64,000 nt of DNA, taken from NCBI GenBank assembly GCA_035635555.1, contig DASQAT010000028.1, forward strand, positions 133,885 through 197,884, given 5' to 3'. Under the pieces are notes generated by a model. The model was not told where the DNA came from. It did not search any database and was given only the letters and a program-made list of their open reading frames with translations. This document shows positions 37,937 to 41,095 of the stretch, piece after piece. This DNA is from Candidatus Dormiibacterota bacterium. GTDB lineage: Bacteria > Acidobacteriota > Polarisedimenticolia > Gp22-AA2. The position numbers and the translations under genes are program-made. The first letter of the stretch is position 1; each line of letters opens with the position of its first letter.

Positions 37937-40900
37937 GTGCCGCGCGCCGTACGTGTCTGCCCGCCGGTGTTCGCAGCGATCCTGGCCCTCGCCGTCCCTC
38001 TGACCATCATCCGGGGCGCTGTCCCGCTCGCCGCTCCGGATGGACAGGTCGCGACCAGCGCTCAGGAGGCCTCCCCGGGGCCCACGCCAGCGGGCGCCGC
38101 GCCGCCCGGCCCGGCCCCGTCACCCACCCCGGCCCCCCCGGCCGAGGCGGCCCCCTCCCCGCAGGACAAGAACCGCGGACCCGAGACGGGGCCGCAATCT
38201 CCGGAACCCGGACCCGGGGGAGAGCCGGAGGGGGCCACGGCACCGGAGGCCCCGGCCGGCGGAGGGAAGGGAGTCATCGGACGGATCGTCGTGGACGGCA
38301 ACATCCGGGTGTCGGACACCGCGTTCTTCAACAGCCTGCACCTCAAGTCGGGCGACCCGTACGACGAGCGCGCCATCCAGGACGAGTTCCGCCGCCTCTG
38401 GGACCTGGACCTCTTCGACGACATCAACGTCGAATCGCGCAAGCGCGAGGGGAACGTCTACGACTTGATCTTCCACGTGCGCGATCGGCCTCTGGTGGGG
38501 AACGTCGCGTTCGTCGGCATGAAGGCCGTGACCGAGGCCAACATCCAGGAACGGCTGAACCAGGCGAAGTGCGAGGTGAAGCGCGGGCAGCCGGTGGACT
38601 TCTCGGTTCTCAGCCGAGCGGAGGCGGCCATCGAGCAGCTCCTGGCGGAGAAGGGGTACCTGCAGGCGCGGGCCAAGGCGCGCCTGACCCCGGTCGGCCA
38701 GGGGCAGCGCGAAGTGACCTTCCACATTCGCGAGGGGGCCAAGACCAAGATCAAGAAGATCGACTTCACGGGGAACACGATGTTCACGGACCGGCGTCTG
38801 CGCAAGATGCTGAAGCTCACCAAGCAGGCCTTCTGGCTGACTTCGTGGGCCTCGTCCAAGACCCTCTATCATCCGGCCAAGTTCGACCAGGACGCGGAGA
38901 ACATCCGCACGTCGTACAAATCGGTCGGCTACCTCGACATCGCCATCCAGCCCGAGATCGTGGAGCTCGTGGGCGGCAAGCCCAAGAAACCACAGGGCAC
39001 CCCCAAGAGCCTGACCCTGGTGGCGCCGGGCACGACACCGGGCGCGCAAGGACTCGAGGATGAAGACGAGGAGGACTTCGAGGAGCCGCCCCCCGCCCCG
39101 GCTCCGCCGGGCGAGACGGAGAAGCAGCGGACCCGGCGTGTCAAGGCCGAGCTGAAGGCCAAGAAGAAGAGCGAGACGCCGCCGAAGAAGTGGGTGCACC
39201 TCACCGTTCCGATCGACGAGGGGGCGCAGTACAAGGTCGGCAAGATCGACATCGAAGGGAACAGCGTCTTCAGCGGACCCGAGGTGATGGCGCGGGTGCC
39301 TCTGCGCGCGGGCATGGTGTTCAACGACTCGGCCCTCAAGTTCGGCACCAAGCGGCTGGAGGAGGACTACGGCGAGCGGGGGTACTTCTACGTGTCGATC
39401 GATCCCCGGATCGACAAGCATGAGCGCACCGCCGACCTCACCCTGGCGATCACCGAGGACAAGAAGTACTTCGTGGATCGCATCGAGTTCGGCGGCAACA
39501 CCACGACGCGCGACGGCGTCCTGCGGCGGGAGATGCCTCTGACCGAGGAGGATCTGTTCAACGTGCGCCGCATGCGCCTGGGGCTGCGCAAGATCGCCCA
39601 GCTCGGATACTTCCAGGTCGGCGACGACCCGGCGGTGAAACCGAAGGGGGAGACCGACCACGTCGACATCCTGGTGCAGGGCGTCGAATCGAGCCGCAAC
39701 GAGATCCAGGTGGGCGGCGGCGTCTCCGGACTGGAGGGAGGGTTCTTCCAGGCGTCGTATTCCACGCGCAATTTCCTCGGCCGGGGGGAGATCTTCTCGA
39801 CCTACGTCCAGACCGGCACGCGCGCCAACCGCTACTCCTTCAACTTCACGGAGCCGTGGTTCCTCGGACACCCCTGGACGCTGGGGTTCTCCCTGTTCCG
39901 GCGCCAGACCGACTACACCGGATTCCGCCAGATCGGCAGCGGCGGCACCCTCTCCCTCGGGCGGCTGCTCGGCGTATTCAGCCGGTTCGACGTGGCCTAC
40001 GGCTACGAGAACGTGGATCTCCTGACGACCACGGCCGGGTTCCCGGTCAACCGCCAGAACAGCGCCACGAGCAGCCTCACGACGCTGTACACCGTGGACA
40101 CCCGCAACAATTACTTCCGCCCGACGCGCGGCTACCGCGTGCAGGGGAGCATGGAGTATGCGGGAGGGTTCCTCGGCGGGGACAATTTCTTCTACAAGCC
40201 CCGATTCGACGCCACGCTGTACCTCCCCGGTCTCTCGCGCAAGCATTACATCGGGCTGAACGCCGCCTACGGGTACGTCTCGCCCTTCGGAGGGCGCGTC
40301 GTGCCGGTCTTTGAGCGCTACTTCCTCGGAGGCGAGAGGTCCCTGCGCGTATTCAAGAGCCGCACGGTCAGTCCGGCGCGGCGCGACGTCGACGTCAACC
40401 ACAACGGATTCATCGACACTCCGGAGGATCGCAACCCGGACGGGGTCTTCGAGCCCTGCGAGGATCTCAACGGCAACGGGGTCCAGGACAAGAACGAGCC
40501 GGACCGTGGCAATTGCCTTCTCGATCCAGCCGAGGACGCCAACAACAACGGCATTCTCGACACGGAGGACCTGAACCACAACGGGGTCCTCGATCCGGGC
40601 GAGGACAAGAACGGGAACGGAATCCTGGACACCGAGGACAGAAACGGAAACGGCCGGCTCGATCTGGGCGAGGACCGCCCGGACGGGATCTGGACCCCGT
40701 TCTGCCCGGCGGACGATCCGAACATGAACGGCAAGCAGGATCCGGGCGAGTTCGACAACGGCAACTGCCGCCTCGATCCGGGCGAGGACACGAACGGGGA
40801 TGGCGTCTTCGGCACCGTGTTTCCGGGTGGCAACCAGTACATCCTGCTCAACGCCGAGTACACGGTTCCGCTGGCCGACGCGGTCGAATTCGCCCTGTTC

Positions 40901-41095
40901 TACGACGCGGGCAACGCCTTCGACGACGGGCAGAAGATCCGGCTGAACGACATGCGCGTCGACTACGGCTTCGAGCTGCGCTTCTACCTGCCGGTCTTCC
41001 AGGCGCCCCTGCGTCTGATCTACGGCTTCATCCAGAACCCGCAGAAGGGCGAGGACCCCAGCAACTTCATCTTCAGCATCGGCACCACTTTCTAG
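37937..41095 (+). CDS. bamA: Outer membrane protein assembly factor BamA with unusual loop insert
   Basis: A 1052-residue Omp85 protein. After a signal peptide (about 1-35) comes a Pro/Ala/Glu-rich stretch (35-110), then five POTRA-like repeats (about 112-620; each opens like [13 protein letters not shown] or [13 protein letters not shown]). The third is preceded by an acidic/Lys-rich insert (about 355-415). The barrel (about 630-1052) ends in the expected aromatic C-terminus (FSIGTTF). Before the L6 insert, [15 protein letters not shown] holds R804-V805-F806 where the family has RGF. An insert of Asx-rich calcium-binding-type repeats (817-958) follows. Start is GTG with AGGAGA upstream. BamA folds outer-membrane barrels; Skp and LpxD genes follow as usual. 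Confidence 0.92.
40385..40810 (+). repeat. Calcium-binding-type repeat insert in BamA loop 6
   Basis: About 142 codons of short repeats built on D/N-x-N-G-N-G-x-x-D, such as [36 protein letters not shown] and DRNGNGRLD, spaced by acidic DPGED/DTED linkers, with four Cys. The pattern is that of EF-hand-like or thrombospondin type 3 loops. It is in frame and lies between the RGF-equivalent motif and the next barrel strand ([12 protein letters not shown]), which should be extracellular. Confidence 0.85.

Follow-up and report, generated by a model that had tools for sequence, protein, structure and literature searches.

The window, which is the whole 64,000-nt stretch of DNA analysed here, includes a gene for the outer-membrane insertase BamA in which the conserved motif of loop 6 is altered and is followed by a long, Asx-rich run. 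The locus raises the questions of whether this is the housekeeping BamA, whether the altered motif and the run arose together, and what such a run might do on an essential outer-membrane machine.

The bamA gene and its product

The bamA frame runs from a GTG start at 37937 to a stop codon ending at 41095 and encodes 1052 aa. Its product scored 497.6 bits against the TIGR03303 OM_YaeT equivalog model (curated cut-off 297.15 bits), Pfam placed five POTRA matches and an Omp85 match split into two stretches, and 16 barrel strands were counted in an AF2 model. The neighbouring genes, as read from open reading frames, appear to be lolC, lolD and clpC upstream and skp, lpxD, fabZ and lpxA downstream; the only neighbour confirmed with Pfam is the lpxD that adjoins the bamA of family f2 at L057. 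From its score, domains and neighbours, the window gene looks like the housekeeping BamA, and the identity given in a preliminary description of this DNA was upheld. The genome is that of a gp22-type soil acidobacterium, in a class that we take to be Polarisedimenticolia. The features of the gene are as follows.

37937..41095, + strand: bamA (1052 aa), encoding five POTRA stretches plus an Omp85 barrel of 16 strands (TIGR03303, Pfam, AF2 strand count)
40346..40354, + strand: loop 6 anchor motif, R804-V805-F806 in place of RGF (HMMER alignment; all 11 genomes of the order that could be read have V, L or A)
40385..40810, + strand: loop 6 insert, residues 817-958, an Asx-rich array of EF-hand-type loops (translation, motif scan, dN/dS)
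40391..40498, + strand: EF-type loops 1-3, at residues 819, 831 and 843 (motif scan)
40535..40672, + strand: EF-type loops 4-7, at residues 867, 878, 890 and 901 (motif scan)
40715..40750, + strand: EF-type loop 8, at residue 927 (motif scan)
40787..40804, + strand: ninth hexad, DxNxDG, at residue 951, with the acidic twelfth residue absent (motif scan)
40457..40768, + strand: span of four Cys codons (841, 860, 923 and 944), which family f1 retains and family f2 lacks
40856..40858, + strand: E974 (NAEY, strand 12), which probably pairs with R804 and corresponds by motif to E. coli E717 (residue correspondence by our reading of the sequence)
40904..40906, + strand: D990 (FYDAG, an FxDxG motif in strand 13), which probably also pairs with R804 (motif match, by our reading)

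The loop 6 VRGF/Y motif has been described as conserved in all Omp85/TpsB proteins, and in E. coli it is of importance to BamA itself as well as to OMP assembly (PMC4890855). In HMMER alignments, SLRVF of the window BamA paired position by position with TVRGF or SVRGF in three solved BamAs; Arg and Phe are kept, and Val stands in place of the conserved Gly, the loss of which had been noted previously. The strict VRGF/Y signature is thus absent, though the TIGR03303 equivalog model does not rest on it. In E. coli BamA, E717 forms a salt bridge with R661 (PMC12505904). A network around the FxDxG motif is likewise described as holding the loop 6 Arg (PMC7644211). As the Arg and its likely acidic partners E974 and D990 are kept, the R804 anchor probably still works.

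Translation also confirmed that the run begins at D817 (at 40385), 11 residues past F806. Over its 142 residues, the insert includes nine hexads of the DxNxNG type, and is not a uniform series of the D-x-N-G-N-G repeats previously reported. Successive hexads are 12, 12, 24, 11, 12, 11, 26 and 24 residues apart. Eight have the spacing of an EF-hand-type calcium loop, taken as the pattern D-x-[DNS]-x-[DNS]-G-x-x-[DNSE]-x-x-[DE], with acidic residues at positions 1 and 12, Asx at 3 and 5, and Gly at 6. When the same 142 residues were shuffled 20,000 times, the mean number of EF loops was 0.036 and the maximum was 2, so that no shuffle reached 8, and the mean number of hexads was 0.38, with none reaching the observed nine. 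The fifth position of the hexad is Asn in 7 of 9 cases, which may weaken calcium affinity. The 157 residues that follow the motif in loop 6 are strongly acidic (37 acidic and 13 basic), and the four Cys of the insert could form disulfides.

Units that lie 11-12 residues apart, as in much of the array, leave no room for the flanking helices of an EF-hand. Pfam EF-hand matches fell below the cut-offs (PF00036 and PF13202, 17.9 versus 25.4 and 15.6 versus 25.9 bits), a dockerin match was not obtained in the Pfam search, and thrombospondin type 3 (PF02412) was absent among matches up to E 10, a level at which the HMMER filters drop most weak matches. No relative of the insert was found by sequence search of the PDB at E 0.1. 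Tandem Repeats Finder (TRF) detected no array in the insert DNA, even at a score of 30, which indicates that the units have diverged at the DNA level.

The side of the membrane was assessed from an AF2 model of POTRA5 and the barrel, built on a 10-row alignment in which only three sequences cover the insert. The mean pLDDT was 57.7, with barrel strands mostly at about 65-88, and the best matches of the model to PDB entries in Foldseek were BamA structures, E. coli BamA being the first. Eleven barrel strands precede the insert and five follow it. This places the insert between strands 11 and 12, hence in a predicted extracellular loop 6, consistent with the cell-surface location proposed initially; a periplasmic place for the repeats, which had been named as grounds for rejecting that proposal, is ruled out by the strand count of the model. 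The pLDDT of the insert was below 50 in the barrel context and 36 when it was modelled alone, where no helices of four or more residues were formed, and the model therefore says nothing about the shape of the insert, including the rod form proposed initially.

Distribution of the insert and of the motif residue

A protein-query scan of species genomes returned nine loci. Those in three gp22 Acidobacteria MAGs (L009, L010 and L011) have SLRVF and the insert, and those in Acanthopleuribacter, Sulfidibacter, an Acidobacteriota MAG and a Holophagae MAG (L012-L015) have VRGY and no insert. The insert shows 79-85% identity and dN/dS of 0.13-0.20 among the window BamA, L009 and L010, as compared with dN/dS of 0.14-0.20 for the POTRA part and 0.07-0.27 for the barrel. 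The insert is thus under purifying selection, like the barrel, and is therefore not an assembly error. In the same three sequences, identity is only 39-58% across the Pro-rich N-terminus and the linker of residues 345-425. This linker (38969-39211) is a charged, Pro-rich insert between POTRA parts, with ~49-58% identity among near relatives.

A TIGR03303 search was extended to 60 genomes, comprising 12 of the same order (including the contigs of L009-L011, as G003, G004 and G005), 29 of other orders of the class and 19 from elsewhere in the phylum, the last judged on the best match per genome. The insert is intact in 10 of the 12 genomes of the order, frame-broken in one (G005) and cut off in one (G002), where the contig ends within bamA. 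In G005, the frame breaks where the array starts, close to the end of the contig (L011:6150-6180; also L054), probably through a repeat-related assembly fault. The array is absent from all 26 readable genomes of the other orders (G017, G031 and G040 were unread) and from all 19 genomes elsewhere in the phylum. The preliminary description had called the repeats calcium-type, and to the extent that this refers to EF-hand-type loops recognised by motif, they are fixed across the order. It had also allowed for a local assembly problem, an objection that fails given the same motif and insert in independent assemblies.

In family f1, loop 6 continues for 157-161 residues after the motif and has four Cys, and in family f2 for 107 residues with no Cys. 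The insert begins with DxDxNxNGxIDxPED in both families and ends with GEDTNGD...FGTVFPGG in f1 and a slightly altered form of it in f2; these matching ends point to a single origin. Three genomes from other families of the class (G024, G028 and G030; L070, L073 and L075) carry just one EF-type loop within loop 6, possibly the seed of the array.

The motif residue is distributed differently from the insert. It could be read in 11 of the 12 genomes of the order, all with the array, where it is Val in 6, Ala in 4 and Leu in 1. In the 26 readable genomes of the other orders, all without the array, it is Val in 14, Ile in 7, Ala in 2, Leu in 1 and Gly in 2, the Gly being lost in 24. Of the 37 readable BamAs of the class, with or without an insert, 35 therefore have Val, Ile, Ala or Leu after the Arg, whereas all 19 BamAs from elsewhere in the phylum have Gly there. 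Since the Gly has been lost class-wide, mostly in BamAs that lack the insert, the insert is not the cause of the loss. By this comparison of sequences, the loss is older than the insert and separate from it, and the expectation that Val and the insert would co-vary was not borne out. Most members of the class outside the order have the context GGxxxGPR[V/I/A]F, which is one residue longer than the GGERSLR[V/L/A]F of the order, and G018 has GGERTLRLF without the array.

The only readable BamAs of the class with the motif Gly are those of G032 and G036 (L077 and L080), two genomes of one genus with GPRGF, which may represent reversion or retention. A second Omp85 protein in the genome under study keeps VRGF, and the TamA homologue of the class, which is often fused to TamB, has the canonical RGF in 8 of 8 copies read. 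One such 2154-aa frame (L048:3383-9847, + strand; G000:C48), in which TamB (PF04357, residues 1045-1385) is joined to POTRA and an Omp85 barrel, is by its predicted domains a TamB-TamA-type fusion. A TamB search of 41 genomes gave matches in 34, and by comparison of the two match lists, 29 of these have the TamB match in one open frame with an OM_YaeT match. No report of a TamB-TamA fusion was found in the open-licence literature, covered mostly at title and abstract level.

Related arrays on other surface proteins and the possible role of the insert

Profile matches to the lipopolysaccharide exporter LptD were found in all 12 genomes of the order, and 11 are readable (L126 and L116-L125), that of G005 being a fragment. 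All 11 include an Asx-rich loop of extracellular type, with a D/N/G/E fraction of 0.57-0.68 in the richest 40 residues. Outside the order, 26 loci were examined, and the fraction did not exceed 0.45 in any of the 21 that a frame filter left readable. The BamA insert and the LptD loop thus have a common taxonomic boundary, the order. In nearly all cases, the LptD loop follows a strand ending in YYTK or similar and precedes a GP-F/L-SR-like strand; the frame of G003 ends just past it. Several strict EF motifs in long EF-type arrays are present in LptD of G010 and G011, and one or none in that of the other members, so the loop is best described as Asx-rich rather than as a strict EF array.

A search of the genome with a DNA pattern encoding DxNxNGx[hydrophobic]D gave 31 occurrences, five of these in bamA, as against none for a reversed control. 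Other barrel proteins that carry it are encoded by three TonB-receptor-type frames (L114, L090 and L103), an OmpW-like frame with a single motif (L086) and the LptD frame (L111). In the three TonB-receptor-type frames, the EF-type arrays are long and seem to lie in surface loops. The pattern is also found in frames that look secreted and match kelch, S8-peptidase or MopE/TSP3.

The similar LptD loop and the longer arrays of receptor barrels suggest that BamA is one case of an order-wide theme. The account regarded as reasonably probable is that the insert is a built-in, Ca2+-stabilised cap, part of an order-wide decoration of surface loops by calcium-stabilised arrays, with a role that is probably structural and protective. 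Loop 6 of BamA in this order would have expanded to form a domain of about 105-160 residues with tandem EF-hand-type loops. The array would be exported unfolded, stay so while BamA itself is assembled, and fold upon binding extracellular Ca2+ into a rigid cap above the extracellular mouth of the barrel, with its base held by the R804 anchor inside the lumen. Calcium motifs of the Dx[DN]xDG type have been reported to be biased towards periplasmic, surface or secreted places (PMC3123361).

Attachment or shielding is an unlikely alternative, in which the array would form a calcium bridge to polysaccharide, lipopolysaccharide or a surface layer, or mask BamA from phage or bacteriocins, leaving its assembly function untouched. 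The presence of arrays on several unrelated surface barrels of one genome and the strongly acidic sequence of the insert would fit such a role, but escape from phage or immunity predicts fast change, and the insert is as conserved as the barrel. Less likely again is a calcium sensor, with Ca2+ stiffening loop 6 and altering the opening of BamA, and likewise of LptD, such that insertion would be tuned to external calcium. Loop 6 is mechanically coupled to the barrel via R804 and its partners, and both essential outer-membrane insertion machines carry an array in exactly the same order of bacteria; the arrays on receptor-type barrels of the same genome, however, favour general decoration. It is similarly doubtful that calcium controls both BamA and LptD through loop arrays built on a class-wide redesign of the anchor from RGF to R-V/I/A/L-F, a change for which the textbook motif leaves no room.

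Two further explanations are very improbable. If the insert and the change from Gly to Val were a single coupled innovation, with Val compensating for the load on loop 6, their joint occurrence in all 11 of the order's genomes that were readable would be accounted for, but this is contradicted by the class-wide loss of Gly without any array, including the LRLF motif of G018. Neutral low-complexity expansion or an assembly artefact might be suspected because repeats slip easily, one relative is frame-broken at this point and the contig of another ends inside bamA. Against this, the frame is open, dN/dS is low, the DNA units have diverged, and the length is nearly constant within each family (157-161 and 107 residues). 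A Ca2+-stabilised cap remains the preferred reading.

Comparison with known systems

The window protein shares with the canonical BamA of E. coli, Haemophilus and Neisseria the five POTRA stretches, a 16-strand barrel with loop 6 between strands 11 and 12, the loop 6 Arg and aromatic residue with their acidic partners, and the operon neighbours. It differs in having RVF rather than RGF and 157 residues of loop 6 after the motif, with an EF-loop array. By model, domains and barrel the protein is a BamA, with a new surface module in loop 6 and a departure from strict VRGF/Y. No description of a BamA loop 6 with a calcium or EF-hand array, or of a class-wide loss of the motif Gly, was found in the open-licence literature, again covered mostly at title and abstract level. 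With Val, Ile, Ala or Leu in place of this Gly, the class provides natural variants for probing the role of the residue.

The array resembles the Dx[DN]xDG motifs of thrombospondin type 3 repeats, dockerins and calcium blades in its linear loop grammar, tandem arrangement and mostly extracytoplasmic place, as these are described in PMC3123361. It differs from them in having Asn at position 5 in most units, in its location in an outer-membrane barrel loop, and in the lack of a Pfam TSP_3 or dockerin match.

On present comparison, the nearest known parallel to the insert is the canopy of the Flavobacterium johnsoniae BAM complex, formed by BamH and BamM, which combines an extracellular canopy over BamA, extended BamA loops and structural calcium, features that the proposed cap would share. 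Seven Ca2+ ions are described in BamM (PMC12611786). There, the calcium is held by a separate surface lipoprotein on a 76-residue addition to L5, whereas here the array lies within L6; and the F. johnsoniae BamA has only 16 extra residues in L6 and keeps LRGY, unlike the window BamA. A calcium-type cap built into BamA, with a counterpart in LptD, would resemble the calcium-bearing canopy of Bacteroidota BAM. This suggests that outer-membrane machines acquired extracellular calcium-stabilised caps more than once in evolution.
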